Shown in pieces: positions 2,742 to 20,290 of a DNA stretch of 26,560 nt (within the stretch, counting starts at the first letter, position 1; each line of letters begins with the position of its first letter). The DNA is from a virus, in IMG/VR virus record IMGVR_UViG_3300042731_005201, positions 1-26,560 of that record; one strand, given 5' to 3'. The notes beneath the pieces were generated by a model. It saw only the letters and a list, made by a program, of their open reading frames with translations. It did not search any database and had not been told where the DNA came from. The position numbers and the translations under genes are program-made.

Positions 2742-2878
2742 TATTTACCTCGTTTTTTCTTGCTGATCTCGATAGCAGCAAGTTGAGCATTCGCTTTCTT
2801 TTTTGTTTTATGGCGGCCAAGGATCTGACGACCGCTGGAGTCTGTGACTATCCACTCATTACCGTCTTGTTTTACCAT
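2741..2878 (-). CDS. Small basic protein, 45 aa, between terminase and portal
   Basis: It reads MVKQDGNEWIVTDSSGRQIL followed by GRHKTKKKANAQLAAIEISKKKRGK. The first half looks like a short beta-hairpin (W-I-V-x-D-x-x-G-R) and the second is a Lys-rich amphipathic helix. Similar small proteins often sit beside portal genes, with unknown function. The preceding GGAGATAATC supplies a Shine-Dalgarno site, and the stop overlaps the portal start. The 95 bases upstream of it, to the end of terminase, hold only 10- and 12-codon frames that I do not call. Confidence 0.7.
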   Translation of the reverse strand: MVKQDGNEWIVTDSSGRQILGRHKTKKKANAQLAAIEISKKKRGK

Positions 2879-2973
2879 GATTATCTCCAGGTTAGCGGCA
2901 GCGACTTTACCTTCCACCTATTTTGAATAAGAAATTTTTAGTCATATTGCTTTTTCCGCAGTAGGATCTTGCA

Positions 2974-4548
2974 TTAAGTCCATCCTTTCGGGTTCTTTTT
3001 TTGGCCGTGACGACTTGACCTTCGCTCCATACTGTCACGCATATTTTGGATCTGCGTTCTAAATCTGTGCTTAATTGACATGGTATGGAAAGCGTCAGCA
3101 CCATTGGAAGCCCAATCATGCAGAGGCTTCTTTTTGTAGGTACCGCGCTTCTCGTCCCACTCTTTCCGGTAGGACTCCAGGCACGCCAGGCCTCGATCAC
3201 ATTTCTCTTCGTCGATATAGACGATCCCCAGGAACATACGAGAGGCTTCAATCTGCGACTCCTTACTCACCCTTGGAGCCACCTGGAAGTTGAAGCCATG
3301 ATTTTTGGCGAAGGCCTTACGGGTCTTCCCGCTCGTGTACTCGTGAACCATGATGTCGTGAGGCGCTGTGTGCTTCCCGTACCGATAGGGCTTCTCGTCC
3401 CTAAGGTAGTTGATATAATGAAGCAGGCCCTCTCCGCTGTTCTCGTAATAGTCGATCACTCGAAGCTCTCGACCAATATCCTGAGTGAACCAAATTGCAT
3501 TTGTATCATTGTAGCCAAGATCCCACCAGGTATCCACGAGATAACTTTCGTTCCATGGTACCGACGTAATACGCTGCTCAAGCCGCATCTTCTTAATCTG
3601 CGTCTTGAAGTATGAGCCTTCGATTGCTGCATAGAAGGCCTCTTCAGGTATCGACGGGTGTTCTTGCCACATCAAGTCCTGGCCGAGCTGCGCGAGCTTT
3701 TTTACATACCAGGCCTTCTGTCCTTCGCTTAGCTTAATGCCATGCTTAACCTTCAGCTCGTCGAAGTATTGCCGGTTATGCTCGTAGAAGACTACGCCGT
3801 CAGGGTCAAGGTAATTTAACGGGTTCTTCCACCAGGCGAAGAAGAAGAATTTTGGGTCAAGCGCTGTGAGCTTCGCACTCGTGTCCTGTAGCTTTTGTGC
3901 CACCTGGCTGTAGTCGTAGAAATGACCCTCTCGGCCCTCAGCCGTACTCTCGATAATGACAATCTTTCCAGGATGGATAGCATTGAGCGTACCCGATACG
4001 ATCTCATTAGCCTTGTCTGGATACTTCGCACAAATCTTTCCAAATTCCGATATATGGATGAACTGAAAAGTACCAGACCGACCAGAAGTAGCCACGCGAA
4101 TAGAGCTACCGTTACTAAACCTAAGGCGGTTTGCTCTTTTAGTGTCTGCTTCGACGGCAGCCTGTATCCCCTGAGGCAAGTTATCATAAGCATATTTTAC
4201 CTTCTGGTGGAAAAATTCTTCAGCCTCGTCCAGGTTATGAGCGATAATGAGCGCCTGTGTATTCGAGTTGAATAAGCACAGGTCAAGGCCAAATATACAC
4301 GAGAAGGTTGTAACGCCGAGCTGCCTGGCCTTCAGCACCAGGTTGAAATACCACATACCGAGGTATATGTTTTTCTGCGCCCAATTAAGATTAAACCTGA
4401 TATGGTTGCCGTCCGCATCTTTGATATAGTACAGGTTGTCAATGCGGCTACGTTGGCTCGCCAGTATCTTGCTTAAGCTCTCAATGTCTTGGGCCTCACC
4501 ATCTACCTCAGCGTGGACGGTGGTGCTTGTGTTTCCGAGATTTAACAT
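2974..4548 (-). CDS. terL: Terminase large subunit
   Basis: ATP-driven DNA packaging motor with a headful or site-specific nuclease, 524 aa, normal for the family. Visible motifs: a variant Walker A at residues 73-80 (KARQLGVT), a Walker B-type segment with the catalytic Glu at 165-170 (HISEFG), a coupling motif at 200-205 (ESTAEG), and a C-terminal RNase H-like nuclease half starting near 340 (DTWWDLGYNDT, then DAFHTMSIKH near the end). A GGGGGAT site eight bases before the ATG supports the start. A terminator lies just upstream, so its own transcript must start at an unidentified promoter or arise by read-through. The small subunit is about 10 kb away, which is unusual. Confidence 0.93.
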   Translation of the reverse strand: MLNLGNTSTTVHAEVDGEAQDIESLSKILASQRSRIDNLYYIKDADGNHIRFNLNWAQKNIYLGMWYFNLVLKARQLGVTTFSCIFGLDLCLFNSNTQALIIAHNLDEAEEFFHQKVKYAYDNLPQGIQAAVEADTKRANRLRFSNGSSIRVATSGRSGTFQFIHISEFGKICAKYPDKANEIVSGTLNAIHPGKIVIIESTAEGREGHFYDYSQVAQKLQDTSAKLTALDPKFFFFAWWKNPLNYLDPDGVVFYEHNRQYFDELKVKHGIKLSEGQKAWYVKKLAQLGQDLMWQEHPSIPEEAFYAAIEGSYFKTQIKKMRLEQRITSVPWNESYLVDTWWDLGYNDTNAIWFTQDIGRELRVIDYYENSGEGLLHYINYLRDEKPYRYGKHTAPHDIMVHEYTSGKTRKAFAKNHGFNFQVAPRVSKESQIEASRMFLGIVYIDEEKCDRGLACLESYRKEWDEKRGTYKKKPLHDWASNGADAFHTMSIKHRFRTQIQNMRDSMERRSSRHGQKKNPKGWT

Positions 4549-4563
4549 TTATCCCCCATAACC

Positions 4564-4609
4564 AAAAAAAAGCGAGGGATGACCTGAGTTGTTCAGGTAT
4601 CCCCCGCTT
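4564..4609 (-). terminator. Rho-independent terminator
   Basis: On the minus strand a long stem (AGCGGGGGATACCTGA paired with TCAGGTCATCCCTCGCT, small imperfections, 5-nt loop) is followed directly by a run of eight T. It would end transcription of the unit that starts at 6642, just before large terminase. Confidence 0.85.
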
Positions 4610-4649
4610 AAGATAGCCTTCGGTTATAGGATTATGTTAAGGTTATTTT

Positions 4650-5126
4650 TTATCGGTTGAAAAATCTCCTTATCTTCCACCACCAGGTACGGTGAAGTCC
4701 AGGGTTCTTCAGCTCCCATACGATACCAAGTAGTAAGTTAAACATGAACCGGTGAAAAGCGTTGGGAAGCTCAGGGCCATATTGAATAACGATACCACCA
4801 AGGCGGGCGGTACCATAAATAACCTGGGCCTTGGTAGGATTGAGATATATCAGGCCGGTAAACTCACCTACATCAGCATCAAGGGCATCACCATAACCAC
4901 TATAATCTATATCGGGCGGGCTGTGTATAAAGACCTTACCAGGCTCAAAGCCGCCAGTAGCCTCGACATTAGGCTCAGACTCCCAATCAATTCCCCTGTA
5001 TGGGTTATCAAACCTGGACTCCAGTAGCGCACGACAAAAGCCGGTATCGCACCAATCGCACTTGACCGGCACCAGGGTCACAGATTGTATCTCGTGATGA
5101 CATTCATCACATTTTAGAATAGGCAT
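4650..5126 (-). CDS. Zinc-ribbon protein of unknown function, 158 aa
   Basis: The N-terminus carries CDEC (residues 6-9) and CDWC (24-27), spaced like a four-cysteine zinc ribbon. The rest has no recognised motif: an acidic middle (near 60-95, with DYSGYGDALDADVG) and a C-terminal Trp/Arg-rich amphipathic segment (HRTWWWKIRRFFNR) that could touch a membrane or nucleic acid. An AAGGGG site precedes the ATG. It is the last gene before the terminator at 4564-4609, and its leader holds two inverted repeats (5139-5203). Function unknown. Confidence 0.75.
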   Translation of the reverse strand: MPILKCDECHHEIQSVTLVPVKCDWCDTGFCRALLESRFDNPYRGIDWESEPNVEATGGFEPGKVFIHSPPDIDYSGYGDALDADVGEFTGLIYLNPTKAQVIYGTARLGGIVIQYGPELPNAFHRFMFNLLLGIVWELKNPGLHRTWWWKIRRFFNR

Positions 5127-5138
5127 AATTTCCCCTTC

Positions 5139-5203
5139 CCGCTATAGCGGTAAAATGGTCTATTAATGCACCGTATGTCGGCTATAAGTAACATTAATAG
5201 ACC
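5139..5203. promoter_or_regulatory. Palindrome plus long inverted repeat in the leader of the 158-aa gene
   Basis: There are two elements: a perfect 12-bp palindrome CCGCTATAGCGG (5139-5150) directly before the AAGGGG ribosome site, and a perfect 12-bp inverted repeat GGTCTATTAATG / CATTAATAGACC (5157-5168 and 5192-5203) with a 23-nt spacer. A further ACATTAATA lies at about 5231. The arrangement suggests protein operators or an RNA stem. CTATTAAT also occurs in the promoter at 14098-14128, so a shared regulator is possible. Confidence 0.55.
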
Positions 5204-5234
5204 AAATTTGCTGTATTGACGGTAAAAACCAACA

Positions 5235-5594
5235 TTAATATAAATCAAATAACATACGCTGGCCGGTGGACTTCAGGGCCTTATTAGCGATATGCGGCAG
5301 CTTGTTGATCTCTTTAGACCGGCTACCCTGAGTGGCCTTGTATCTCTTGATAATCTCCCTGTCCTCAGTTATCTGATATCCCTTAACTGAAGACACGACG
5401 ACATAGCCCTTTTTACCGGCATACTCTTTGACCTGTCTCATTATCTTGCGGACTTTGGAGCGGGTCTTCTTATCATTGTCCTTGATATCAAATAGGACGT
5501 TGATAATCACAGACGAGTACCACTCACCATTTCCCATGTTACGGGCCAGGAATTTTGTGATATCGTCTATTACTCGCCGTACCTTCTCGGACAT
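5235..5594 (-). CDS. Putative winged-helix DNA-binding protein, 119 aa
   Basis: Likely alpha/beta fold: helices around residues 5-20 and 40-58 (SKVRKIMRQVKEYAGKKG), then a beta-hairpin YVVVSSVKGYQIT, the usual look of a wing (strand, turn with Gly-Tyr, strand), then a basic helix with KRYKATQGSRSKEINK. This is typical of small phage winged-helix regulators or replication proteins, but I do not recognise a family. A G6 ribosome site lies upstream, and the start overlaps the preceding gene by 25 bases. Confidence 0.7.
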   Translation of the reverse strand: MSEKVRRVIDDITKFLARNMGNGEWYSSVIINVLFDIKDNDKKTRSKVRKIMRQVKEYAGKKGYVVVSSVKGYQITEDREIIKRYKATQGSRSKEINKLPHIANKALKSTGQRMLFDLY

Positions 5595-5833
5595 ACTGCA
5601 TCCCCCCTTTTAAATGCTCCGTCACCTATCTGAGGCCCAAGGTGAAAGAATGCTATCGCCAGGTTGCGAGCGCAATCCCAACAAATATGACGATCTGCCT
5701 TGCTCGGAGACTCGCGCTCGATATGGTTGGCTACCGTATGATAACCATAAAGCATGACGCCCTGGATCTTCATATCGTCCTTATCGAAATCTCGTTTGCA
5801 AAGCTCACAGGTATAAGTAATATTGGCTGTCAT
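5570..5833 (-). CDS. Cys-rich zinc-binding protein, 87 aa
   Basis: CELC at residues 9-12 and CWDC near 51-54 form a split four-cysteine zinc site, with three His between them. It is coupled on both sides: its ATG overlaps the upstream stop (TAATG), and its last 25 bases overlap the next gene and contain that gene's G6 ribosome site. Unknown function; one of many small Cys-rich proteins here. Confidence 0.7.
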   Translation of the reverse strand: MTANITYTCELCKRDFDKDDMKIQGVMLYGYHTVANHIERESPSKADRHICWDCARNLAIAFFHLGPQIGDGAFKRGDAVCPRRYGE

Positions 5834-6087
5834 TAATCCCCCTCGATCTCAGGCACGAAGCCACCGCACCAGGAGTCCACGCCCTTGCTCTCGGTCTTCG
5901 GGTTAAGGTAGCATAGGCCATAGTTGGAGTTGATCTTCTCAAAGCAATCAGGATGGCCCTGGATCTCGATCTCCTTGGTTTCACGCAGAAAGAACCGGCA
6001 CAGCTTACAGCGGGCCTCAATGTAAATAGGCTTACCCGCACAAAAGCCGGTCTGCTTTACACCAATAAGGTATTGGAGTCTTTTCAT
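5833..6087 (-). CDS. Cys-rich protein, 84 aa
   Basis: Six Cys: the first near residue 16, a CKLC pair at 27-30, then singles near 48, 59 and 74. No family is recognised. The start ATG lies 11 bases after a run of seven G, and the stop overlaps the next gene as TAATG. The Cys arrangement suggests metal binding or a small disulfide fold. Membership of the unit starting at 6642 is clear from spacing. Confidence 0.7.
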   Translation of the reverse strand: MKRLQYLIGVKQTGFCAGKPIYIEARCKLCRFFLRETKEIEIQGHPDCFEKINSNYGLCYLNPKTESKGVDSWCGGFVPEIEGD

Positions 6088-6123
6088 CTGTATTTTACCC
6101 CCCCGTTTACAGTCGCATGGCCG

Positions 6124-6588
6124 CTACTCATTATCTTCCTCCCTTACATATACATGTGCTTTCAAGCCTTGATAGATCTCATCGTCATATGTTTCAAATC
6201 TTTCTCTATAGCTATAAGATCTTCCTATGCTTATCTCAATTCCAAACTTGTCTTCAAGAGCTTTCTTCCAAGCATTGAACTTTTTGGATTTTTTAATTGA
6301 GGTACGTCCAGAAGATTCTTCCTTGTAAAATTTGATGGAATAGAAAAACTCTTTTTCCCAAGATAGCATACATGACCCCTTGTGGTCAACTATAAAATCG
6401 ACTACTTTCTTTTTGGGAGACTTGATATTAAAAGCCTTTGCTTCAAATCTCTGTATGATGTCGTCTACTTCTTTGGAAAACTCTTGGCTGTTCAATCTCT
6501 TTTTTCTGGCTTTCTCTTTTCTTTCATACTCATCCATTCTACGTTGCTGTTCATCCTTTTTCTTTTTTACCATTTTGGCTACACTCAT
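6124..6588 (-). CDS. Basic coiled-coil protein, 154 aa, first gene of its unit
   Basis: The first 40 residues are almost all Lys, Arg, Glu and Gln and should form a charged coiled coil (KKKKDEQQRRMDEYERKEKA). The C-terminal two thirds (about 55-154) look globular, with alternating Lys/Phe/Trp strands such as SIKFYKEES and FNAWKKALEDKFG. No family is recognised. AAGGAGAT precedes the ATG at a good distance. It is the first gene after the promoter at 6612-6642. The codons are more AT-rich than in neighbouring genes, a possible sign of separate acquisition. Confidence 0.75.
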   Translation of the reverse strand: MSVAKMVKKKKDEQQRRMDEYERKEKARKKRLNSQEFSKEVDDIIQRFEAKAFNIKSPKKKVVDFIVDHKGSCMLSWEKEFFYSIKFYKEESSGRTSIKKSKKFNAWKKALEDKFGIEISIGRSYSYRERFETYDDEIYQGLKAHVYVREEDNE

Positions 6589-6611
6589 AATGTCATCTCC
6601 TTCATAATACC

Positions 6612-6642
6612 ATTATATCACAGGTCAAGAATTAATCGAACC
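6612..6642 (-). promoter_or_regulatory. Phage promoter, copy A
   Basis: On the minus strand: GG, TTCGAT at the -35 position, 17 bp, then TATAAT, with TGTG just before the -10 (extended -10 type). It shares this layout and most spacer bases with the copies at 14098, 20322 and 25031. Its first base touches the CCA end of the tRNA. It drives 6588 leftward. Confidence 0.85.
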
Positions 6643-6732
6643 TGGTGGGCAGGGATGGATTTGAACCATCGAAGGCACATAGGCCACCTGATTTACAGTC
6701 AGGCTGCTTTAACCGGACTTGCATACCTACCC
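6643..6732 (-). tRNA. tRNA-Tyr (GTA)
   Basis: 90 nt, class II. Acceptor GGGTAGG pairs with CCTGCCC (one G-T), then discriminator A and an encoded CCA. D stem TGC/GCA, anticodon stem CCTGA/TCAGG with loop CTGTAAA (anticodon GTA), a long variable arm of 16 nt with stem GGC/GCC, T stem GATGG/CCATC with loop TTCAAAT. The long variable arm is normal for bacterial tRNA-Tyr. It lies between unit A and the plus-strand cassette, divergent from the latter. A dedicated promoter was not identified. Phage tRNAs usually compensate for codon bias or host tRNA cleavage; which applies here is unknown. Confidence 0.93.
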
Positions 6733-6734
6733 AC

Positions 6735-6770
6735 TTAACCGGACATTTAACCGGACATTATGACCGGATA
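6735..6770. repeat. Tandem direct repeats TTAACCGGACAT
   Basis: Two exact 12-bp tandem copies (6735-6746, 6747-6758) and a diverged third (ATGACCGGATA, 6760-6770). They fill the gap between the tRNA 5' end and the promoter at 6781. A related TTTAACCGGACT occurs inside the tRNA D arm (6708-6719). They could be regulator binding sites for the plus-strand promoter, or the trace of a local duplication. Confidence 0.65.
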
Positions 6771-6780
6771 AAAAAAGTCC

Positions 6781-6840
6781 TTGACATTATTTTCAGGCTA
6801 TGCTAAGATGTCACATATGACATTGGATATGAGACATCTT
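6781..6840 (+). promoter_or_regulatory. Consensus sigma70 promoter with operator-like repeats
   Basis: TTGACA (6781-6786), exactly 17 bp, TAAGAT (6804-6809). From the -10 onward there is an 8-bp inverted repeat AAGATGTC / GACATCTT (6805-6812, 6833-6840) and, inside it, ATGTCA-CATA-TGACAT. GACAT half-sites therefore cover the start point, as expected for a repressor operator. It drives the PAPS reductase-like gene. Confidence 0.85.
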
Positions 6841-6858
6841 AACACGAAAGGAAACTCA

Positions 6859-7611
6859 ATGAGCCAGGAAATAACCGAGCTTATCGAAAGAGGCGCTCTC
6901 TTCGTCATCAATCACAGCGGCGGCAAAGATAGCCAGGCCATGACGCTGAAGATAAAACGCCTGGTGCCAAAGTCTCAGATATTGGTCGTACACGCTGATC
7001 TCCCTGAAGTGCATTGGGCCGGTTGCTGGGATCTCATAGAGCGTACCTGTCCAGACTTGGCGCGAGTCGAGGTAGTCGCTGTCAAAACCTTCGTGGATAT
7101 GGTACGGCACCGTGGAATGTTCCCCTCTCCCAAATACCGTCAATGTACCTCTGACCTCAAGCGAGGCCCGATTGAGAAAGCTGTCAGGCACTATATCAAA
7201 GATAACAACCTCAGCGGCCTGGTTGTCAACTGCATGGGTCTGCGTGCTGAAGAGTCCACTTCGCGGGCCAAAGCCAAGGTTTTTACGTTCAGCAAACGCA
7301 ACTCCAAGGCCGGTCGAGAATGGTATGATTGGCTGCCAATTCATCATTGGTCTACCTCACGAGTATTCGATGAAATAGCAGCAGCCGGTGAAGAACCTCA
7401 TTGGGCCTATGCAGCAGGCATGGAGCGCCTGAGTTGCTGCTTCTGCATCATGGCCTCTAAGAAAGATCTTCAGACCGCTGCCAGGTTAGCTCCCCAGGAA
7501 TACAAAACAATGGTTGACCTGGAGAAGGAAATAGGATTTACAATGATAATGCCCAAGAAGGGCCAAAAACCTCTTTACCTCGAACAAATAACCGGCATAA
7601 AAGCCAAATAG
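6859..7611 (+). CDS. PAPS reductase-family PP-loop protein
   Basis: 250 aa in the adenine nucleotide alpha-hydrolase fold. Visible: PP-loop SGGKDS at residues 20-25, YRQCTSDLKRGP around Cys96 (the substrate or redox loop of the family), GLRAEES at 127-133, and a C-terminal Cys group SCCFC (Cys193, 194, 196) that with Cys96 could hold an iron-sulfur cluster, as in APS reductases and DndC-type proteins. Relatives reduce PAPS/APS or activate sulfur for nucleic acid modification; the substrate here is unknown. The start is set by AAAGGA seven bases before this ATG; an earlier in-frame ATG would lie upstream of or inside the promoter region. It is on the opposite strand to nearly all other genes. 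Confidence 0.88.
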   Translation: MSQEITELIERGALFVINHSGGKDSQAMTLKIKRLVPKSQILVVHADLPEVHWAGCWDLIERTCPDLARVEVVAVKTFVDMVRHRGMFPSPKYRQCTSDLKRGPIEKAVRHYIKDNNLSGLVVNCMGLRAEESTSRAKAKVFTFSKRNSKAGREWYDWLPIHHWSTSRVFDEIAAAGEEPHWAYAAGMERLSCCFCIMASKKDLQTAARLAPQEYKTMVDLEKEIGFTMIMPKKGQKPLYLEQITGIKAK

Positions 7612-7623
7612 AAAGGAGACCCT

Positions 7624-8076
7624 ATGAGACCCACAATGGTACCCAACGATCTACCGGCAATCCCCTACAAGGTCAAAGTATTCGTAACCTATCATAGAGG
7701 CGTCGGTCACGGCCCCCTGAAGAGCTACTGCTACCTGTACGCCTCAATGAATAGCGAAGGACGCCAGGTTCTTCATGTAACCGACAAGCGCCACAACGAC
7801 GCACCGCTCAGGCTCGACCCTGGCTGCTATGCGGGCGGCATGGTTCCGATAGTACCCTCATACTATATCCCCACCGGCACAATGATATACCCGATCAAAG
7901 GCGAAGGTGAGTGGGAGACCCCTAAGCCCCTGGCAAAGATCCTCTATGATACCGATACTGAAGACTTCTTTGTGTACGTCGAAGATCTTAATTTAAGGGT
8001 ATATGGCGGCTTCTCCAGGCACTCAGCAGAGGCCTATTGTAAGGCCCAAGGATACCGGTTTAGACCATTAAGTTAA
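7624..8076 (+). CDS. Unknown protein, 150 aa, paired with the PAPS reductase-like gene
   Basis: It starts 12 bases after the preceding stop with a strong AAAGGAG site, so the two genes are co-transcribed and end at one terminator. The protein is rich in Tyr, Pro and Gly and looks all-beta, with strands such as YKVKVFVTYHRG and FFVYVEDLNLRVYGG. It has no signal peptide or membrane segment. I do not recognise it. Its constant pairing with the PP-loop gene, if seen elsewhere, would imply a joint function. Confidence 0.8.
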   Translation: MRPTMVPNDLPAIPYKVKVFVTYHRGVGHGPLKSYCYLYASMNSEGRQVLHVTDKRHNDAPLRLDPGCYAGGMVPIVPSYYIPTGTMIYPIKGEGEWETPKPLAKILYDTDTEDFFVYVEDLNLRVYGGFSRHSAEAYCKAQGYRFRPLS

Positions 8077-8098
8077 GTACCTAAGCACCTTAACAAAG

Positions 8099-8145
8099 AA
8101 AAAAGGGCGGTAAGCTACTGAGTTAAAACAGCTTCCGCCCTTTTT
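8099..8145. terminator. Bidirectional terminator between converging units
   Basis: AAAAAGGGCGG-T-AAGCT pairs with AGCTT-CCGCCCTTTTT around a 13-nt loop. It has A and T runs on both sides and so can end the plus-strand cassette as well as the minus-strand unit that ends at 8291. The 145 bases from 8146 to 8290 hold no gene I would call (one 48-codon frame is discussed under findings). Confidence 0.88.
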
Positions 8146-8290
8146 ACGATGGTGCAGCCCCCTTCTAAAATTTCTAAAAACTTAGCAAAACTTAACATTT
8201 CATCAATTTCACGCCCCTTTTTTGAGCGATTCCTCAACGAAATGAGACAAATTACCTGCATTTATCAATAAGTGAAGAGGTTTTTATCCG

Positions 8291-8590
8291 CTACTTAACA
8301 AAACCCCATATGCTCATTACCTGGTCAAACTTATAGGCAGCCCAAGATATACGCACCAGCTTAAGAATAAAGTCCTCTGAGTACACGTTGTCCAGGGCGT
8401 CGATATACATTGAGACGTATTTAACACCGCCAAGGCCAAGCTCTCCAGGCTTCCTACCAACCAGCGCCCTGAGGACTGTTCCGAAATGCCGCATCGAATA
8501 AGTGGTCTCAACCCTGATAAGCTGAATGCGATACATACCGAGCAACAGCGCCAGGTCAAATTCAAATTTTGGAGACATCTCATTAACCAT
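8291..8590 (-). CDS. Unknown protein, 99 aa
   Basis: A mixed alpha protein with a conserved-looking core (FDLALLLGMYRIQLIRVETTY, FGTVLRALVGRKPGELGLGG). No motif is recognised. The start overlaps the upstream gene by eight bases, so the two are coupled. It is the last gene of the unit beginning at 14128. The fold and function cannot be stated. Confidence 0.7.
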   Translation of the reverse strand: MVNEMSPKFEFDLALLLGMYRIQLIRVETTYSMRHFGTVLRALVGRKPGELGLGGVKYVSMYIDALDNVYSEDFILKLVRISWAAYKFDQVMSIWGFVK

Positions 8591-8993
8591 TTTTAGACCC
8601 CGCTATTTGATCTCCCTGGATAACAACAGTACCCTTCATGCTCACAGCCTCTTTTCTCAGGGCTGAAGGCAACACAGCAGACAGCAGCAGCTTGGTATCT
8701 CTTAGGTGAGACTCCACAGCCGCGAGCTTCTGGTTAGTGGCCGTTGCCTCAGGCGGATCAAAGATGTCAAGGAAGCCATAGAAGATAGCCTCTGCCTCTT
8801 CTCGGCTGAGATGAAGCCTGGCCTCTTTCGGTATCATGGCCCCAGGCTTATGCGGTTCAAATACAAAATGACCTATCTCTTTGTCGAACCGGCCAACATT
8901 AAAGGAGCCGTCCTGGTTCTCGATATACAGAGTAAGGTCAAAGCCAAAGCGCTCCATTGGCCTCGTGATATGCGCTTTAATCTTTCCGATCAT
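8583..8993 (-). CDS. Unknown protein, 136 aa
   Basis: The first 60 residues look like a beta sheet (IGKIKAHITRPMERFGFDLTLYI); then SREEAEAIFYGFLDIFDPPE and a helical tail with HLRDTKLLLSAVLP. The C-terminal MKGTVVIQGDQIAGSKNG is polar. No family is recognised. A G6 ribosome site lies just before the ATG. Its end overlaps 8291-8590. Confidence 0.72.
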   Translation of the reverse strand: MIGKIKAHITRPMERFGFDLTLYIENQDGSFNVGRFDKEIGHFVFEPHKPGAMIPKEARLHLSREEAEAIFYGFLDIFDPPEATATNQKLAAVESHLRDTKLLLSAVLPSALRKEAVSMKGTVVIQGDQIAGSKNG

Positions 8994-9002
8994 GTTCCCC
9001 CC

Positions 9003-9218
9003 TTAATTGTCATACCTGGTAAGCGACCAACCAGCTATGCTATCGTTTAAGAAGACAGCTCGCTTTTCCCGACCATCCGACATGGCCTTATAATTAAAAC
9101 TCACGGCGGTCTCGTTAACGTGGTTAATGGTAACATCTTTAAACGTGAACGTCTTGCCGGTCGGAAGAAAAATACAGATAGACCTGAACATATTGCCAGG
9201 CTTTGTGTCTTTTGTCAT
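9003..9218 (-). CDS. Unknown small protein, 71 aa
   Basis: Mainly beta: SICIFLPTGKTFTFKDVTIN, then AVSFNYKAMSDGREKRAVFL. It has the look of a small barrel or SH3-like fold, but this is impression only. A run of six G precedes the ATG. The start overlaps the nuclease gene by four bases (ATGA type). Confidence 0.68.
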   Translation of the reverse strand: MTKDTKPGNMFRSICIFLPTGKTFTFKDVTINHVNETAVSFNYKAMSDGREKRAVFLNDSIAGWSLTRYDN

Positions 9219-9670
9219 GCTATCCCCCCATGGTTAAAAAATTTAAACATAAGCGACCTGGCTATCTTAGTGATAACCTTAGGGCCTACCTTGGCAGTAT
9301 GCAGGCGGGTCGGCTTTCGGACTACTGTAATGAGATGCTGGCCCCACCGGTTCTCAGCACAATAATATAGGCCATAGCATCTGGATACCTCTTCAGGCTG
9401 TATCAGGCCTGAGGGTACCGCGAAAGAATAATAATTAGGGCCGCGCCGGTTGCCAATATACTGTTTGTGCTTAGTGCTTTTGTTCTTAAACTCGGACTTG
9501 TAATCAGCCCTGGATATCTTGACTTCGACCTCGTGCCAATACATTGACGGCATCAGCCGCACGATATCACACTCCCAACGCCAGGAGCCGAAATAAATAT
9601 TGGGAGCTATCAATAGACTCGACGATAGAAATTTGTGAAAATACGCCCGCTGTATAGCCCGCTCGTCCAT
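9215..9670 (-). CDS. PD-(D/E)XK nuclease-like protein (MmcB-like)
   Basis: 151 aa. The pattern D35 ... E49-V-K51 (ECDIVRLMPSMYWHEVEVKIS) matches the D-(x)n-ExK catalytic core of PD-(D/E)XK nucleases. The following ADYKSEFKNKSTKHKQY and the later YSFAVPSGLI strand fit the MmcB-like DNA repair subfamily, where a basic helix follows the active site. Known members cleave or repair DNA; the target here is unknown. It overlaps both neighbours by 1-4 bases. The assignment is from motif order, not from alignment. Confidence 0.65.
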   Translation of the reverse strand: MDERAIQRAYFHKFLSSSLLIAPNIYFGSWRWECDIVRLMPSMYWHEVEVKISRADYKSEFKNKSTKHKQYIGNRRGPNYYSFAVPSGLIQPEEVSRCYGLYYCAENRWGQHLITVVRKPTRLHTAKVGPKVITKIARSLMFKFFNHGGIA

Positions 9671-9867
9671 CAGTCAGTATTAAGGTAGTCGGCCACATTG
9701 TCAGGGCTGAAGCCGTGAGCCAGGCACAGGCCTTTAAACATACCGGCCAGGTCTTCCATATTGGCATCCCACATTTCAACCTCTGACTGATACCGCACGT
9801 TAGGCCCCATCGAATTAGGGTAATCAACTTCGAGTATCAGTCTGGTTCCGAATTTCTTTTCTCCCAC
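9670..9867 (-). CDS. Unknown small protein, 65 aa, GTG start
   Basis: The start is GTG, supported by GAGGGGGAG five bases upstream. The protein (MGEKKFGTRLILEVDYPNSM, later GLCLAHGFSPDNVADYL) is a small alpha/beta type with no recognised family. The stop overlaps the nuclease start as TGATG, so the two are translated together. Confidence 0.68.
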   Translation of the reverse strand: MGEKKFGTRLILEVDYPNSMGPNVRYQSEVEMWDANMEDLAGMFKGLCLAHGFSPDNVADYLNTD

Positions 9868-9938
9868 TACTCCCCCTCATAATCGAAGCGCATGGCTTCC
9901 GATAATGGTGCAGCCGTCCGCATACCTGGCACCACCGG

Positions 9939-10103
9939 TCAGTCGAGCTTTTTTGCTTTGACCTCGATCTCATAGGTCTTGCCCTCTTCAAAGATATCAG
10001 CCAAATCCCAGCCGTTATATCGGTCGGCGGATTCAATACTAATGCCCCTGCTACACGGCCTGATATACACACAGCCTGAAAATTTGACATTATCCTTGTC
10101 CAT
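9939..10103 (-). CDS. Unknown protein, 54 aa, probably extended by -1 frameshift to 75 aa
   Basis: The frame reads MDKDNVKFSGCVYIRPCSRG onward and stops right after EVKAKKLD. The codons GCA AAA AAG at 9948-9954 form the heptamer A AAA AAG. A -1 shift there enters a frame (ARLTGGARYADGCTIIG and on) that runs 23 more codons to 9877 and ends at the ribosome site of the next gene, filling a gap of about 70 bases in a region that has almost no gaps. Either this is programmed frameshifting or one A was lost in the sequence. The start overlaps the upstream gene by 14 bases. Confidence 0.65.
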   Translation of the reverse strand: MDKDNVKFSGCVYIRPCSRGISIESADRYNGWDLADIFEEGKTYEIEVKAKKLD

Positions 10104-10443
10104 TTATGATATACCTCTCAAGGTCTTCAGCACATTTCTCATAAGTATCAGCCTGGTGTATCATGTCGAGCATGACCAGCGGGCTTCTGTTCTGACGGCC
10201 ATTAACCCTTAGGCCCTCAGCTATATTCTTCCAGGCATTACAAAGGGCCATGGCCTTTTCCCTTAGAGGGTCTTCAGGCTCAGGTTTTGGAGCTGCACAA
10301 GCCTCACAGTCTCCAGGGAAAGTACGCGCTCGGCAGCCGTCGCAATCTTCTTCAGTAGGCTTATCCCCGTGGATAGCCTCACAGGTCAGGGTATGAACAG
10401 ATAGCGGAAGCTGAACCTCTTTAAAGCAGTATGGGCATTTCAT
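10090..10443 (-). CDS. Zinc-ribbon protein, 117 aa
   Basis: CPYC at residues 3-6, Cys21, then CDGC and CEAC pairs near 34-50 suggest one or two zinc sites, followed by a Pro/Glu linker and a helical C-terminal part (ALCNAWKNIAEGLRVNG). Such proteins bind nucleic acids or proteins; the role here is unknown. Its ATG overlaps the stop of the frameshifted gene upstream (ATGA). Confidence 0.72.
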   Translation of the reverse strand: MKCPYCFKEVQLPLSVHTLTCEAIHGDKPTEEDCDGCRARTFPGDCEACAAPKPEPEDPLREKAMALCNAWKNIAEGLRVNGRQNRSPLVMLDMIHQADTYEKCAEDLERYIINGQG

Positions 10444-10671
10444 TCTTTTTCCTCGACGAGTTTCATGTCAGACCGGCAAACCAGGCACACATATTTAAAG
10501 CCGGTGCCATGCTCGATACCGGTATAAGGACAGCGTTTCGGCCTGGTATCAACCTTACCACAGCCTCGGCCACCAGGTCTTTAAGTTTGCCCGCCGTCGT
10601 CCTGGCCTTGTCGCTCTCCAGGCTGTGAAGCCCCGAATGATTCCCTCATAACTCTTTTTAAATAGTGCCAT
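10440..10671 (-). pseudogene. Broken zinc-finger gene with two single-base shifts
   Basis: Three frame pieces line up end to end: MALFKKSYEGIIRGF from the ATG at 10671 (ribosome site GGGGGAAA), then HSLESDKARTTAGKLKDLVAE in the -1 frame, then CGKVDTRPKRCPYTGIEHG and on in the next -1 frame, ending VCLVCRSDMKLVEEKE with a stop that overlaps the next start. Adding one base near 10625 and one near 10563 would restore a 77-aa protein with a CxnC...CLVC zinc finger. The exact fit to both neighbours shows the intact gene existed recently. Mutation and assembly error are both possible. Confidence 0.7.
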
Positions 10672-10680
10672 TTTTCCCCC

Positions 10681-10986
10681 TTATTTTAGAAGATATGAAC
10701 CCATCAGAATTAAAGCTATACCAACCAGGCTCGCCAGGCTCAAGCTCTCCTTGAACATAAAGCAGCCGGTTAAATATCCCAATATTGATAAAGTGCCAAT
10801 AGCAACGAACCAATAGCCGGTGAAACTTGGTGCATTCTTTATAGCCAATGGTAGCAGCCAGGCCGTTCCACCGAGGACGCCGAGGACGTACAGACCATAT
10901 GTGCCAAGGGTAAGGCCGCTCGATCTCATTGGTATCTGAACGACGGTTAAAATAATCATAGCAACGATTAAATAGACTAACCACAT
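10681..10986 (-). CDS. SMR/EamA-like four-helix membrane protein
   Basis: 101 aa with four predicted membrane segments (about 2-18, 28-48, 56-74, 82-100). Length and layout match the small multidrug resistance family, and the C-terminal ESLSLASLVGIALILMGSYL is typical of it. Known SMR proteins export cations and need a Glu in helix 1; here helix 1 (LVYLIVAMIILTVVQIPM) has no acidic residue, so proton-coupled transport is doubtful. The start overlaps the upstream gene. An overlapping 108-aa frame (10658-10984) is a shadow. Confidence 0.75.
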   Translation of the reverse strand: MWLVYLIVAMIILTVVQIPMRSSGLTLGTYGLYVLGVLGGTAWLLPLAIKNAPSFTGYWFVAIGTLSILGYLTGCFMFKESLSLASLVGIALILMGSYLLK

Positions 10987-11327
10987 TCAGGCTCCCCCAT
11001 CTGCCTCATGGCTGCTTCAGCATGGTCAACGACGATTGCGATATCATGCCCAAGGTTATATTTACGCCACAGATACAAGAAATGCTCGGCGGTCGTAGCA
11101 TAATACGAGGCCATCTTTAGGCTCTCATGGTATTCTATAAGCTGAGACAATACAGGCACAGGAAGAGCGGTATTGATATCAACCCCGCGCTCGTCCCTGA
11201 TCTTACGGGCCTTGTCTATATAAAATCGACACCACTTCAAACGCTCAAGAAGGGTAGCCCTATAATCGCGCTTGGGCGGCTCAGCCTTTAACAGGTCGTC
11301 TGATATTTCATGGCCGTCGATAATCAT
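10977..11327 (-). CDS. Unknown protein, 116 aa
   Basis: Predicted helical: TLLERLKWCRFYIDKARKIR, then VPVLSQLIEYHESLKMASYY and FLYLWRKYNLGHDIAIVVDH. It has no signal peptide and no recognised motif. The start overlaps the preceding stop (TAATG), and its end overlaps the SMR-like gene by ten bases. Confidence 0.72.
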   Translation of the reverse strand: MIIDGHEISDDLLKAEPPKRDYRATLLERLKWCRFYIDKARKIRDERGVDINTALPVPVLSQLIEYHESLKMASYYATTAEHFLYLWRKYNLGHDIAIVVDHAEAAMRQMGEPECG

Positions 11328-11743
11328 TATAACCCAGCCTGTTCCTCTTCCCTGGTCGGAGTCTCGTTATTCTCCATGGCTGCCACGGCCAGCGCCCCGA
11401 TCTTTCGGATACAGGCCATGCGGTGAAGGTCGAGCTTAAGGTGACTATTGATACCGGTGAGAAACGGAAGCTTTTTGGCCTCGTTGACATAATGTTCAAT
11501 AAAGCCAATCCAATCCATTTCTTCCCACAAAAAGTCCTGGTAATCAGTATTGGACAGATTAAGGTTTTGATACCGGCGCTCTTCGTCGATCATATCAAAT
11601 ACCCTCATGCGCTCTTCCGGTATCTCGCGTGAAGTACACACCCCGATCTCTTCCGCTCCGATCACTCCGAGGTATTGTTTAATCTTCTCGGCTGCCAGGG
11701 ACGGTAGTTGATAAGCCTTTCCATCAAGAAATAACTGCGTCAT
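11327..11743 (-). CDS. Unknown protein, 138 aa
   Basis: The start is placed at the ATG that follows AGGGGGAT, not at the in-frame codon 11 residues upstream. The protein is acidic in the middle (PEERMRVFDMIDEERRYQNL) and contains YQDFLWEEMDWIGFIEHYVN and HRMACIRKIGALAVAAMENN. The ERxYQ segment followed by a helical bundle and the AxxAMEN ending resemble small phage helical proteins of unknown role. No family assigned. Confidence 0.72.
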   Translation of the reverse strand: MTQLFLDGKAYQLPSLAAEKIKQYLGVIGAEEIGVCTSREIPEERMRVFDMIDEERRYQNLNLSNTDYQDFLWEEMDWIGFIEHYVNEAKKLPFLTGINSHLKLDLHRMACIRKIGALAVAAMENNETPTREEEQAGL

Positions 11744-11767
11744 TTTATATATCCCCCTAATGATGGT

Positions 11768-11787
11768 GGCGGGCATCTCAGCCCGCC
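11768..11787. promoter_or_regulatory. Stem-loop in the leader of the 138-aa gene
   Basis: Perfect 7-bp GC stem GGCGGGC / GCCCGCC with a 6-nt loop, 12 bases upstream of the G-run ribosome site. There is no U-tract on the minus strand. The rest of the 11744-11847 gap shows nothing else I can support. Confidence 0.5.
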
Positions 11788-11847
11788 GTTTTAGTCCAGC
11801 TATAGCCTATGAATTAAGGACGTGAACCATCACGGCCTTACGCCTTC

Positions 11848-12180
11848 TTATGAAATAATAAGCGCCAGGGCCACCAGAATAATAACACCGGCACCGGTCA
11901 GCCAGGGCCAATACCGTTTGCAAAATGCTTTAAGCTTAGCTGTAAAAGCCTCGCCCGCATCATAAAGGTCTTTTGCTTCATCAACCGCTTCATCGACGGC
12001 TTTGTCCAGGGCATTTTTAAGCTCAACGATCTCATGCTCATAATCAGCAATGGTGTCTAAAAGCTCCTGTCTAACCGTATCTGAAATTTCAGAGGCCTGA
12101 TCCACCAGCTCTTCATTGATCTGTTTAACGCGAGCTTCAAGCTCTTTGATTCTTCGGTTAATCTCGATTCTCAAATTCAT
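11848..12180 (-). CDS. Coiled-coil protein with C-terminal membrane anchor, 110 aa
   Basis: Residues 1-75 have heptad character (RIKELEARVKQINEELVDQA and on) and are strongly acidic. Residues 76-88 are basic, then WPWLTGAGVIILVALALIIS (91-110) is one membrane segment ending at the C-terminus. AAGGAGAT before the ATG fixes the start. This is a tail-anchored shape. It could be a holin-like or membrane-remodelling protein, but the single helix and coiled coil do not identify a family. Confidence 0.75.
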   Translation of the reverse strand: MNLRIEINRRIKELEARVKQINEELVDQASEISDTVRQELLDTIADYEHEIVELKNALDKAVDEAVDEAKDLYDAGEAFTAKLKAFCKRYWPWLTGAGVIILVALALIIS

Positions 12181-12193
12181 TTGATCTCCTTGT

Positions 12194-12394
12194 CTATCCC
12201 CTTTTTATTAGTGATTTGTAAAGGTTATTCTGTCTCTTTCTGAATTTTTTGTCCGCCATTCTTATAAACGGCCATCCCAAAAGAAAGAAGGCTGTTAGAA
12301 TAAAATTTGTTAAGGCGATCATTGTCATACTTGGTTGGGGTAGCTTCGAGGATACAGGTTCCCCACGCATCATTTTGTCGAGACTCTGCTCCAT
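12194..12394 (-). CDS. Small membrane protein, 66 aa
   Basis: MEQSLDKMMRGEPVSSKLPQ is followed by one membrane segment (TMIALTNFILTAFFLLGWPF, about 24-43) and a very basic tail (KKFRKRQNNLYKSLIKRG). By the positive-inside rule the C-terminus is cytoplasmic. GGGGG five bases before the ATG supports the start. It overlaps most of the 3' third of the frame 12225-12629; I consider this one genuine and the overlapping tail of the other doubtful. Confidence 0.6.
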   Translation of the reverse strand: MEQSLDKMMRGEPVSSKLPQPSMTMIALTNFILTAFFLLGWPFIRMADKKFRKRQNNLYKSLIKRG

Positions 12395-12629
12395 TTTTAC
12401 CCCCATGGCTTCGCCTGAGACCGTTTATAAGGCTTTCGACCCTCTTTTCGATAGATGGATAGCCTAAAAGCTCTAACTGCTCTACAGCCTCTCTGATAAC
12501 CTCACATAGGCTGTGCCGGTCAAAATGGCTATTACGAATAAAAAATAAAACGACAGCCAGGCGCTCCCTCATTAACACATAAGGGCGGGCCATGCGACGC
12601 ATACCCTTAAAAATCTCTTTAAGTCCCAT
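12225..12629 (-). CDS. Unknown protein; C-terminal third probably out of frame
   Basis: Residues 1-65 look natural: MGLKEIFKGMRRMARPYVLM, then an Arg-rich helix and SLCEVIREAVEQLELLGYPS. GGAGAT before the ATG at 12629 supports this start. After ESLINGL the sequence loses normal composition and lies over the 66-aa membrane gene. A -1 shift at 12421-12425 would instead give QAKPWG and a stop at 12397, directly before the next gene's start. The real protein may therefore be about 77 aa and the long frame an artefact of one missing base. Confidence 0.5.
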   Translation of the reverse strand: MGLKEIFKGMRRMARPYVLMRERLAVVLFFIRNSHFDRHSLCEVIREAVEQLELLGYPSIEKRVESLINGLRRSHGGKNGAESRQNDAWGTCILEATPTKYDNDRLNKFYSNSLLSFGMAVYKNGGQKIQKETE

Positions 12630-12718
12630 ATCTGATCTCCAAGGATACACTCGGCATAGCCCAAACAGGCACCAGGTAAAATATAGATAATAAACAAAAG
12701 TGTTAATATTATAGCCAT
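12572..12718 (-). CDS. Small membrane protein, 48 aa
   Basis: MAIILTLLFIIYILPGACLG forms one N-terminal membrane segment; the rest includes WDLKRFLRVCVAWPALMC. AAGGA four bases before the ATG. It overlaps the preceding 36-codon frame by 10 bases and the next by 58, a long overlap that lowers confidence. It may be a lysis-accessory or membrane peptide; no family is recognised. Confidence 0.45.
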   Translation of the reverse strand: MAIILTLLFIIYILPGACLGYAECILGDQIWDLKRFLRVCVAWPALMC

Positions 12719-12819
12719 AGATCCTTCACGACATTTTTGGCATACACAACAGCATCAGACCAATCAACGCCGCTCAACCATTCGCGGACAGCAATATAAT
12801 ATATCCTACATAACTCCAT
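12709..12819 (-). CDS. Short protein, 36 aa
   Basis: MELCRIYYIAVREWLSGVDW, then SDAVVYAKNVVKDLWL. The start lies inside the end of the upstream gene (14-base overlap), consistent with coupling. The sequence looks like two short amphipathic helices. Too short for a function to be proposed. Confidence 0.45.
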   Translation of the reverse strand: MELCRIYYIAVREWLSGVDWSDAVVYAKNVVKDLWL

Positions 12820-13306
12820 TGCGGATACGCTCCCTGGTAGCCTCAATGCTTAAAACCTTGTGCATATTCTTAACGCTGTCAATGTCGTTATGGTTGTAAA
12901 CGATATATTTATAGCCGGTGCGGATACCACTCTCCTTCCTCTGAGGCACCACAGTCCAGGCCGTCATCAGTCGGCCACGCCTAAACGGGTAGGTATCAAA
13001 GAAAGCTTCAAGCTCGTGATAAACACCAGCGCCAAGACAACCATCTGTAAAGGAAGCTCCGATCATATGGTCACAGGACTGAGCGATAAGCTTAAAAATA
13101 AGAAAGCAATCATCATTACCCATGGCCTTCAGATTATTATAAACCTTCTGGAGCATCTCGTCGTTTGGATCTAAAATTCGATAATGCCTGGGCCAATGGC
13201 TACCGCAAAGGCTGGCAGCCTCAACAATCCCTTGGTTTAATGAGTGGTATGGAAAAAATATTGTAGGCCTTCCAAAGTAAATAAGGCGCTCGCGGTATGA
13301 GTCCAT
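12806..13306 (-). CDS. Putative nucleoside deoxyribosyltransferase-fold protein, 166 aa
   Basis: The block CDHMIGASFTDGCLGAGVYH with E98 and E100 after it (residues 78-100) resembles the D...G.GV..E signature of the nucleoside 2-deoxyribosyltransferase / DUF4406 fold, preceded by IYFGRPTIFF as first strand and LIFKLIAQ as helix. Known members exchange bases on deoxynucleosides. The usual N-terminal substrate loop is not clear, so the match is weak. AAGGGGGAT before the ATG fixes the start. Confidence 0.55.
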   Translation of the reverse strand: MDSYRERLIYFGRPTIFFPYHSLNQGIVEAASLCGSHWPRHYRILDPNDEMLQKVYNNLKAMGNDDCFLIFKLIAQSCDHMIGASFTDGCLGAGVYHELEAFFDTYPFRRGRLMTAWTVVPQRKESGIRTGYKYIVYNHNDIDSVKNMHKVLSIEATRERIRNGVM

Positions 13307-13315
13307 TAATCCCCC

Positions 13316-13591
13316 TTAATAAATTCGCTTTAAAGTACCTGGCACCATAGAAGCGCCATGGTTGGATAAGATCTCGGTAACACCCACCAGGGAGCTACCC
13401 TTACTTATTCTGATCTTGGTATTTGGCTTACAAGTACCATCAGTTAACCGAAAAGTGGCAATGTAAACCATTGGTTTTTTTCGAGAAGGTATCTCGGCGT
13501 AGGCACCCTTCTTGCCTACAGGGTGCTTAACACAGCCCCCAGCTCCGCCAGGACGATTATCCCTGCTATTAATATTAGCCCGTCTCTCCAT
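13316..13591 (-). CDS. Unknown protein, 91 aa or shorter; start uncertain
   Basis: From KHPVGKKGAYAEIPSRKKPM onward the protein looks genuine: strands MVYIATFRLTDGTCKPNTKI and RISKGSSLVGVTEIL, a small beta fold. The first 25 residues overlap the neighbouring membrane gene by 76 bases and look unnatural. No ribosome site precedes either this ATG or the internal ATG at 13471 (51 aa). A base change near 13540 may have hidden the true start. Confidence 0.5.
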   Translation of the reverse strand: MERRANINSRDNRPGGAGGCVKHPVGKKGAYAEIPSRKKPMVYIATFRLTDGTCKPNTKIRISKGSSLVGVTEILSNHGASMVPGTLKRIY

Positions 13592-14146: not shown

Positions 14147-14204
14147 AAAAAAAATGGTACAGAAAGGTCGGCAATTAAATCGACCGTCTCCCTATTTTGT
14201 ACCA
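14147..14204 (-). terminator. Rho-independent terminator overlapping a stop codon
   Basis: Outer stem TGGTACA / TGTACCA, inner stem GGTCG / CGACC, followed by eight T on the minus strand. The outer stem includes the last codons of the gene ending at 14192, so translation termination and the hairpin overlap. It closes the unit that begins at 20352. Confidence 0.8.
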
Positions 14205-14449
14205 GGAATGATAATATCAATGATATAAGACTCTCCATGCTCCCCCCTGATTATCTCCTGGATAAGGTCGGCCTCGCCGTCGTTGTCCAGGTCACACCAT
14301 TGCATAAAAGAACCGTTAACCGTTTCCTCTTCGCGCAATATAGCGCAAGGGTCTTTAAGGCTCGGCTTCAGAGGTTCACACCGGACAGACATGGCGAAGA
14401 GTATAACAAATATGGCTGCCAGGACGAGCCTGGCCTGTAGCTTAGACAT
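14192..14449 (-). CDS. Secreted protein with EF-hand-like loop, 85 aa
   Basis: The start at 14449 is chosen because it yields a clean signal peptide: SKLQARLVLAAIFVILFAMS, with cleavage likely near residue 24. The mature part has two Cys and DLDNDGEAD (53-61), the loop form of a calcium-binding EF-hand or dockerin repeat (DxDxDG). The start overlaps the upstream gene's last bases (ATGTCTAA). Probably periplasmic or exported; partner unknown. A longer frame from 14545 would bury the signal peptide. Confidence 0.72.
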   Translation of the reverse strand: MSKLQARLVLAAIFVILFAMSVRCEPLKPSLKDPCAILREEETVNGSFMQWCDLDNDGEADLIQEIIRGEHGESYIIDIIIPGTK

Positions 14450-14708
14450 GGCGGGTCTCAAATAAATGGCTACAGGTAGCGCAGCGCCGGTCTCCATCTC
14501 CACACTCAGGGCATTCGTCCTCGCCTGCAAACACCTTGGCGACATAGATGGAAAACTGAGCCATAACAGCCTTTACTATACCCGTGGCAAACTCCATAAG
14601 CTCGTCAATATCCTCAAAGCTAAAAGACAGTATCCGGTCTCCATTGGGCATAAAGAAAACGAGCTTGGGCTTAAGCCCGTCAAACTCGATCTGATATTTT
14701 TTGGTCAT
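14442..14708 (-). CDS. Zinc-ribbon protein, 88 aa
   Basis: The N-terminal half is a small alpha/beta domain (KYQIEFDGLKPKLVFFMPNG, then FEDIDELMEFATGIVKAV); the C-terminus has CPEC and CATC (about 68-80), a zinc ribbon. The ATG follows AGTAGGGGG at short spacing. It lies directly after the small terminase subunit. Function unknown. Confidence 0.72.
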   Translation of the reverse strand: MTKKYQIEFDGLKPKLVFFMPNGDRILSFSFEDIDELMEFATGIVKAVMAQFSIYVAKVFAGEDECPECGDGDRRCATCSHLFETRHV

Positions 14709-16284: not shown

Positions 16285-16983
16285 CTAATCGACGAGTCCA
16301 AGATCCTTCGCCTTTTTAACGTCAAACCAGGTCGTGCGGCCTTCCATATCTTCCCAGGCCTGCCTTGGCGTCTTGGTATGTGCCGTCAAAATATCCATAT
16401 ATGAGTCCCTTAATAGGTTCATTAGCTCGTTCTGACTACGGATATCTGAGGCCGTCTCTCGGCCAGGCCACTTCCACAGGGCTGCCTCGTGAACCATAAA
16501 GATTGTACCTGGCAGCGCGTGTCGCTCGTCTCCAACAGCCAGCACCGGTATGGCTGCGCTCGCCACAATACCTGAGGCATATATCCTGATAACCATTCCC
16601 TTATTTGAGAAGTCATCCAGGTACCGCGCCAGGGCTATTCCGGTAAAGGCGTCGCCGCCGCCTGAGTTAAGAAATACATTGACGTTCATTATTTCATGGT
16701 TCAGCATAATGTTCAAATCATTCCATAGGCGCGTAACGTCACTCACAGATAAACCAGAAAATATCTTAACATAGCCTTCACCACCGTCAACATAAGACAG
16801 GGCCGTCATCTCAGGCTTTGAGCCTTCGATAAAACCTTCTTCCTGGGTGCATCCCTTCTCGTTAACCGTGACATTGACATCGACAGGTATCCGGTTAACC
16901 TTGCGCTCAGGTGCCTGGGCCGCGCATCCCAACATGACAAAAACGCACGATAGACTTAAAATCTTTACGAGTTTCTTGAACAT
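16285..16983 (-). CDS. ClpP-like serine protease with lipoprotein signal peptide
   Basis: 232 aa. The N-terminus MFKKLVKILSLSCVFVMLGC is a type II signal peptide with lipobox LGC, so Cys20 should be lipidated and the protein exported. The remainder is the ClpP/SppA-type crotonase fold: NSGGGDA (107-112), nucleophile Ser142 in GIVASAA, His165 in MVHEA, Asp212 in WEDMEGRTTWF, and the ending KKAKDLGLVD typical of ClpP. All three catalytic residues are present. Phage ClpP-like proteases normally mature capsids in the cytoplasm; an envelope location argues for a different role, for example host-surface remodelling or exclusion of other phages. It is followed by the HNH-like gene. Confidence 0.85.
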   Translation of the reverse strand: MFKKLVKILSLSCVFVMLGCAAQAPERKVNRIPVDVNVTVNEKGCTQEEGFIEGSKPEMTALSYVDGGEGYVKIFSGLSVSDVTRLWNDLNIMLNHEIMNVNVFLNSGGGDAFTGIALARYLDDFSNKGMVIRIYASGIVASAAIPVLAVGDERHALPGTIFMVHEAALWKWPGRETASDIRSQNELMNLLRDSYMDILTAHTKTPRQAWEDMEGRTTWFDVKKAKDLGLVD

Positions 16984-16986: not shown

Positions 16987-17163
16987 TCAAGTATCCTTCC
17001 CAATCCCCGAATAAGTTAGCCCCCGTGGATATTTAAAGTTTAGCCCGACATACTTAACGCCAGGCTTAAAACACTTTGGACACAAATAGCCCCTGAGGTT
17101 TTGAATTTTTAAAGCCTCTTGAAATCGGTGATTGTTAGCCCTGCATCTGTAAACATAGCTCAT
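16987..17163 (-). CDS. Zinc-ribbon protein, 58 aa
   Basis: YVYRCRANNHRFQE (3-16) and LCPKC (27-31) resemble FmdB-like zinc ribbons, with the first knuckle reduced to one Cys. No ribosome site precedes this ATG, and the reading frame stays open upstream to about 17223, so the true start may be different or disturbed. The gene sits between the ClpP-like lipoprotein and a homing endonuclease. Between 17164 and 17256 there is only an 11-codon frame (17213-17248). Confidence 0.55.
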   Translation of the reverse strand: MSYVYRCRANNHRFQEALKIQNLRGYLCPKCFKPGVKYVGLNFKYPRGLTYSGIGKDT

Positions 17164-17256: not shown

Positions 17257-17742
17257 TTATATCCTTCTATTTTTTACCTGTTCAAGCGGAGTAGCCCACC
17301 TACAATTCCACCTTCCATAAGGGCCATTATTATCAATTCGGTCTATACTCATTCCCTTCGGTCGGCTACCCATATCGGCTAAAAAGTTTTCAAAAGACTT
17401 TCTCCATCTGCGACAAACGGCAATCCCCCTACCACCATAGTATTTGAAACTGAGTAATTTTTCATTATAACAGCGCTGTTTCATTTGATGGTAAGACGTG
17501 TATTCACGAGACTGTTTTCCACCAGAATAATGACCGTGTTTCCTAACACGACCGTTTTTCTTAAGAAGACACCCGCAAGATCTCGTTAGCCCCTGAACAA
17601 GGCTACCACTCCTTACCTTAAAAAAATTACCACAGTCGCACTTACAAAGCCAAACCCTAAACCCGTGGTCGCGCTCCCTTGTGACACAAACAGCCAGGAG
17701 CCTTCCAAACTTTTTTCCTGAAAGATCTCTCGGAACGGCCAT
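17257..17742 (-). CDS. HNH homing endonuclease (AP2/HNH phage type)
   Basis: 161 aa. It starts with the [13 protein letters not shown] module, then a zinc ribbon (CKCDCGN ... SCGC), then HG and [20 protein letters not shown], and the HNH core ending [20 protein letters not shown] with EQ..NRR. This is the standard order in free-standing phage HNH endonucleases, which nick or cut specific sites and spread by homing. It is a mobile gene, probably inserted between neighbours of an older operon; the disturbed start of the next gene may be a result. GGGGATTAA precedes the ATG. Confidence 0.9.
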
Positions 17743-19864: not shown

Positions 19865-20290
19865 TTATTTTGCTTCATAGCCCTCACAGCTAAAATCGTT
19901 TCCGAGCCAATAAACCAGAGTGCATTTAACCTGGTTGGGAATATACTCACCGCCACCGGCATCACCGGCACTACCGACGCTTCCACCGGAAGAAGATCCG
20001 CCGCCACCGTTTCCACCGTCGCCGCCACCGTCGCCGCCACCGTCGCCGCCACCGTCTCCACAGCCGCCGCCGTGTCCGCCGTCACCGCCGCCGTGTCCAT
20101 TACCATTGCCGTTTCCACCCTGGCCGTTTCCGCCACCATGTCCGCCACCGTATCCGCTTCCATGGCCGCTGTTTCCACCACCAGCAGATGCACCAGGCCC
20201 ACTACCGTCACCACTTCTCGCGTAAGCCATATTAACACCAGCCACAAAAGTAAAAACCAAGATTGCCAAAACTGCAAAAAATTTACGCAT
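19865..20290 (-). CDS. Secreted glycine-rich protein, 141 aa
   Basis: A signal peptide (RKFFAVLAILVFTFVAGVNM, cleavage near AYA-R) is followed by about 85 residues that are mostly Gly with Ser, Asp, Asn and His, built from GGG-D/H/N units, and a C-terminal domain with two Cys (CTLVYWLGNDFSCEGYEAK). GAAGGGGGAAT before the ATG. It is first after promoter copy C. A possible role is as an extracellular or envelope matrix protein. Open frames on the plus strand here are Pro-rich shadows. Confidence 0.8.
   Translation of the reverse strand: MRKFFAVLAILVFTFVAGVNMAYARSGDGSGPGASAGGGNSGHGSGYGGGHGGGNGQGGNGNGNGHGGGDGGHGGGCGDGGGDGGGDGGGDGGNGGGGSSSGGSVGSAGDAGGGEYIPNQVKCTLVYWLGNDFSCEGYEAK
20015..20056. repeat. 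12-bp tandem repeat within the Gly-rich gene
   Basis: 3.5 exact copies of ACCGTCGCCGCC, encoding GGGD units on the minus strand. In-frame, so copy-number changes only lengthen or shorten the Gly tract. Confidence 0.85.

Follow-up and report, generated by a model that had tools for sequence, protein, structure and literature searches.

A predicted ClpP-like lipoprotein common to phages and Desulfobacterota is a probable ATP-independent peptidase of the envelope

The DNA analysed here (the window) is a viral record of 26,560 bases, a linear fragment. On its minus strand, at 16285..16983 (stop codon counted in), it contains a genuine open reading frame, verified for strand and coordinates, that encodes a ClpP-like protein of 232 amino acids. 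A ribosome-binding-site-like GGAAGGA, read from the sequence, is present 10 bases 5' of the ATG (16994..17000, minus strand). The gene order DnaB, SSB, other genes, lipoprotein, DUF968 protein and terminase small subunit is the same in the window and in two other phage carriers (G001 and G002); the remaining phage carriers have markedly different gene sets. Among the immediate neighbours no constant partner gene was seen and no substrate is visible from the context, and a PADLOC defence-system search with the protein gave no match. Just upstream of the lipoprotein gene, at 17257-17742(-), lies a gene that we read as HNH/AP2-type homing endonuclease-like, with no Pfam match. It looks like an insertion, because G001 and G002 have no counterpart at this place. 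Two more genes of the window, at 14192-14545(-) and 19865-20290(-), have exported-looking products, one with a DNDGEAD-like acidic motif and a relative in the contig L002, the other very glycine-rich. Besides, a gene resembling phosphoadenosine phosphosulfate reductases (phrog_424, 5.3e-36) was found at 6781-7611(+), beside a tRNA-Tyr at 6643-6732(-).

The N-terminus of the ClpP-like protein carries the lysines K3, K4 and K7, followed by a hydrophobic core and the lipobox M17-L18-G19-C20 (16924..16935, minus strand, as are all further positions in this protein), with Ala at position +2. Residues 1-20, MFKKLVKILSLSCVFVMLGC, conform to a written lipoprotein rule, and residues 1-19 (16927..16983) would form the signal peptide. 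Among 51 non-overlapping open reading frames of the window only the ClpP-like one obeyed this rule, as did 4 of 20,000 whole-protein shuffles and 30 of the 32 relatives in the alignment on which all residue counts given here are based. Cys20, the predicted lipidation site, was likewise present in 30/32 relatives, despite the hypervariable residues 21-60 that follow it as a tether (16804..16923). A chance lipobox is ruled out by this conservation together with the shuffles and the relatives. The two Cys-less relatives (L018 and L019) have different export-type N-termini, and a few further relatives start with a signal of the SPase I type or with a segment resembling a membrane anchor. This indicates that export, and not the lipid, is the constant property of the family.

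The ClpP-like domain comprises residues 61-232 (16288..16803). A Pfam search with the protein returned CLP_protease as the sole match (1e-15, residues 94-232), with a score of 58.5 bits, above the cut-off of 20.2 for this ClpP (S14) profile. The AlphaFold monomer model showed a ClpP core with a mean pLDDT of 84.9; its uncertain parts were the tether, where pLDDT was mostly low, and a handle-like stretch at residues 171-180 (pLDDT 56). In a fold search with this model the best PDB matches were all ClpP (TM 0.7-0.8, normalised on the target), and a comparison of the family profile with solved chains yielded only ClpP among the best. Ser142 (16558..16560), the predicted nucleophile, and His165 (16489..16491), the predicted catalytic His, were invariant in 32/32 relatives and aligned with the catalytic pair of ClpP. 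The initial annotation had described a ClpP-like protease with a clear lipobox at Cys20 and a complete Ser142-His165-Asp212 triad. The ClpP-like identity, the lipobox and the first two residues of the triad were confirmed, but Asp212 is an Asp in only 3 of the 32 relatives and was dropped as a catalytic residue. The place of the ClpP catalytic Asp (rarely Asn) is occupied by Thr217 (16333..16335), which is found in 32/32 relatives and lies opposite that Asp in an alignment with a solved Thermus ClpP. The family signature TIFMVHEAALWKWPGRETASDIRSQ (residues 160-184; 16432..16506), which contains the handle-like stretch, was nearly invariant in the alignment; further relatives vary this block (HETSIWKWPG). 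In ClpP the handle is an assembly or substrate surface (PMC9035409). The near invariance of the handle-like stretch, together with its looseness in the monomer model, would fit a similar surface, for assembly or for substrate.

Relatives were found in about 16 genomes of Desulfobacterota and in about 30 viral contigs, which represent several phage types unrelated to each other. The viral scan gave 19 loci and the profile scan 34, on partly overlapping sets of contigs and mostly at 41-59% identity. Host contamination of the viral contigs is unlikely, since those examined carry terminase, portal, tail or phage replication genes. Among annotated phages and plasmids only distant matches (<60% identity) were found, and most of those listed bear the name head protease. 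A scan of bacterial genomes yielded 13 loci, every one in Desulfobacterota or 'Deltaproteobacteria' bins. All 13 genomes have CLP_protease matches elsewhere too, and 12 of them encode a canonical ClpP (~1e-87), to which the lipoprotein gene is additional; its chromosomal neighbours are ordinary ones. Seven host loci have a common neighbour, by our reading an FAD-binding oxidase, and some of these seven also have another lipoprotein gene and genes for branched-chain amino-acid transporters. That the host copies are prophage genes is not supported, as several have such common non-phage neighbours. The gene was present in 6/6 genomes of one family, in 11/194 of the order to which that family belongs, in 4/85 of another class and in 1/297 drawn over the phylum, so that it is a chromosomal gene restricted to a clade. 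In a tree of the family the phage protein L005 branched within a supported group of host proteins (99/97), in keeping with the gene having passed from a host to a phage at least once. The dN/dS values were 0.05-0.28 for pairs with unsaturated dS, the only ones considered, and reveal purifying selection. The chromosome of the bacterial genome G513 carries the lipoprotein gene twice, with a few kb between the copies (L109:6279-6950 and 9815-10603, minus strand), one of which gave only a partial profile match.

The protein is probably an exported, lipid-anchored, ATP-independent ClpP-like serine peptidase of the periplasm or envelope that is common to Desulfobacterota and their phages. As predicted from the signal, the cleavage site of signal peptidase II would lie just before Cys20, this residue would be lipidated, and the Ala at +2 would direct the protein to the outer membrane, provided that the E. 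coli sorting rule applies. The flexible tether would keep the ClpP domain at the membrane, where rings may form because the Ser-His pair and the ClpP-like handle region are retained. Retention of this pair, with Thr217 as the third residue, suggests an active protease. As the N-terminal loops of ClpP are missing and the compartment has no ATP-driven unfoldase, cleavage would be ATP-free and would concern peptides or unfolded envelope proteins. In some Desulfobacterota the gene stands alone on the chromosome. What the phages gain is a matter of guesswork; their copies would most likely maintain or tune envelope proteolysis during infection.

In the usual view ClpP is a chamber of the cytoplasm that ATP-driven unfoldases feed, and a ClpP-like gene of a phage is by default called a head protease. 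With ClpP (S14, PF00574) the present family shares the fold, the active-site Ser and His and the handle-region motif. It differs in being a predicted exported lipoprotein instead of a cytoplasmic enzyme that works with an AAA+ unfoldase, in having Thr for the catalytic Asp and no N-terminal loop region, and in occurring in hosts with a separate canonical ClpP. The feature, a ClpP-class protein with a predicted place in the envelope, is real and unusual. No papers on an exported or lipoprotein ClpP were found among the openly available ones searched; such proteins may nevertheless have been noticed earlier, given COG3904, which we take to consist of predicted periplasmic ClpP-like proteins. The wider ClpP/crotonase-like fold class includes SppA, and the STOPP/NfeD protease PH1510-N has a ClpP-like fold. 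SppA is membrane-anchored and acts on peptides in the periplasm by means of a Ser-Lys dyad and a transmembrane anchor (PMC9360617), whereas the window protein has Ser-His and a lipobox. PH1510-N resembles it as a membrane-tied protease with a Ser nucleophile (Ser97), but has a Ser-Lys dyad and five membrane spans, with the protease domain placed at the cytosolic side (PMC10153343). In the sequence alignment, Ser-His is kept in the relatives of the window protein. With a conserved exported, lipid-anchored ClpP-like family in both bacteria and unrelated phages, the Clp superfamily would gain a branch in the envelope, and some of the 'head maturation protease' matches of phages would prove misleading. 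Such a family makes testable the question whether a Ser-His-Thr peptidase of the ClpP type can act at the membrane without an unfoldase, and why phages carry it.

The change of Asp to Thr may mean that catalysis is weak or absent. The family could then be a ClpP-fold lipoprotein that serves as an envelope scaffold or peptide-binding ring, with assembly and not cleavage as its function. All aligned members have the Thr, and the most conserved block follows His165 over the handle-like stretch, as would be expected of an assembly surface. However, Ser142, His165 and their surroundings have remained invariant over long divergence, and dead enzymes usually lose one of Ser and His. Moreover, in ClpP1 and ClpP2 of P. 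plecoglossicida the Ser and His are indispensable, whereas activity is only modulated by the third residue (PMC12900304), so that ClpP tolerates changes of this residue and the Thr does not preclude catalysis. A weak or dead enzyme is unlikely.

Another possibility, put forward in the initial annotation, is that a phage lipoprotein of a new type excludes superinfecting phages or changes the host surface by cutting or blocking a receptor. Llp of T5 and Cor are likewise phage-encoded lipoproteins of the Gram-negative envelope, and proteins such as Llp exclude superinfection from there (PMC9586334); the carriage of the present gene by unrelated phages would agree with such a role. Yet Llp and Cor are small, bind and jam the receptor and are encoded beside the receptor-binding protein (PMC9586334), a pattern that differs from the one seen here. 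Besides, the gene is kept on host chromosomes in non-phage contexts. These chromosomal copies, which the initial annotation had overlooked, point to a cellular envelope role in which phages share rather than to exclusion, which found no specific support and is quite unlikely, and the occurrence of the same lipoprotein in all six genomes of one Desulfobacterota family speaks against an invention of phages.

A three-gene phage membrane module was observed at 15 viral loci (L040:6661-8971(+); L041:4323-6635(-); L090:3695-6160(+); L092-L103 near 4460-6270(+)). It encodes a MotA/TolQ/ExbB proton-channel protein, an ExbD/TolR-like protein that has a single span and a long additional part, and a third membrane protein. 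The ExbB-like protein matched PF01618 (1.9e-9 in L040), above the cut-off in 5/5 ExbB-like proteins tested, and no literature on an ExbB/ExbD-like phage module was found. In three phage contigs (G003, G004 and G589) another exported ClpP-like gene lies directly before the module, and in one of these the lipoprotein gene directly precedes this pair. That the phage proton-channel machine drives exported ClpP-like proteins in place of an ATP-driven unfoldase is suggested by this arrangement but highly improbable, since the module is absent from the window and was found in 2 of the 30 contigs searched that carry the lipoprotein family, too few for a constant partner, and 11 of 14 module-bearing records, many of them fragments, have no ClpP-like gene. 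It is also very doubtful that Desulfobacterota and phages possess a periplasmic Clp-type protease without ATP, made of lipid-anchored ClpP-like rings, in which the part of the unfoldase would fall to the membrane or, in certain phages, to a proton-driven stator of the ExbB/ExbD-like kind.

Finally, an ordinary head maturation protease with a merely signal-like N-terminus, which would belong to the same superfamily and be phage-encoded as well, is hardly credible. In its favour, head maturation proteases gave the best PHROG matches (phrog_94, 3.9e-22), and in the window the gene for the terminase small subunit is found about 1 kb downstream. Against it, the score with the NCBIfam profile NF045542 for ClpP-related head maturation proteases was 66 bits where the cut-off is 120, the lipobox is conserved, hosts have chromosomal copies, and the gene lies away from portal and head genes. 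In G002, a close relative, the lipoprotein gene is at 13.1 kb, the terminase large subunit at 20.9 kb, the portal at 22.7 kb and the major head protein at 30.2 kb, so that the head genes are 8-16 kb off (portal and major head protein 9-16 kb), and no second CLP_protease match was detected in this genome. The remark in the initial annotation that no capsid gene lies beside the gene holds in the window, but the contig stops just after the portal, and the major head gene of G002 is about 16 kb downstream; its reading of a phage-made, envelope-directed ClpP-like protein distinct from head maturation proteases is supported. As a separate observation, the contig L039 encodes a polyvalent phage protein of 4400 residues (363-13562(+)), in which LPD38 and a radical SAM domain are accompanied by a weak match to ADP-ribosyltransferase, and a related protein of 4596 residues is encoded in G001.
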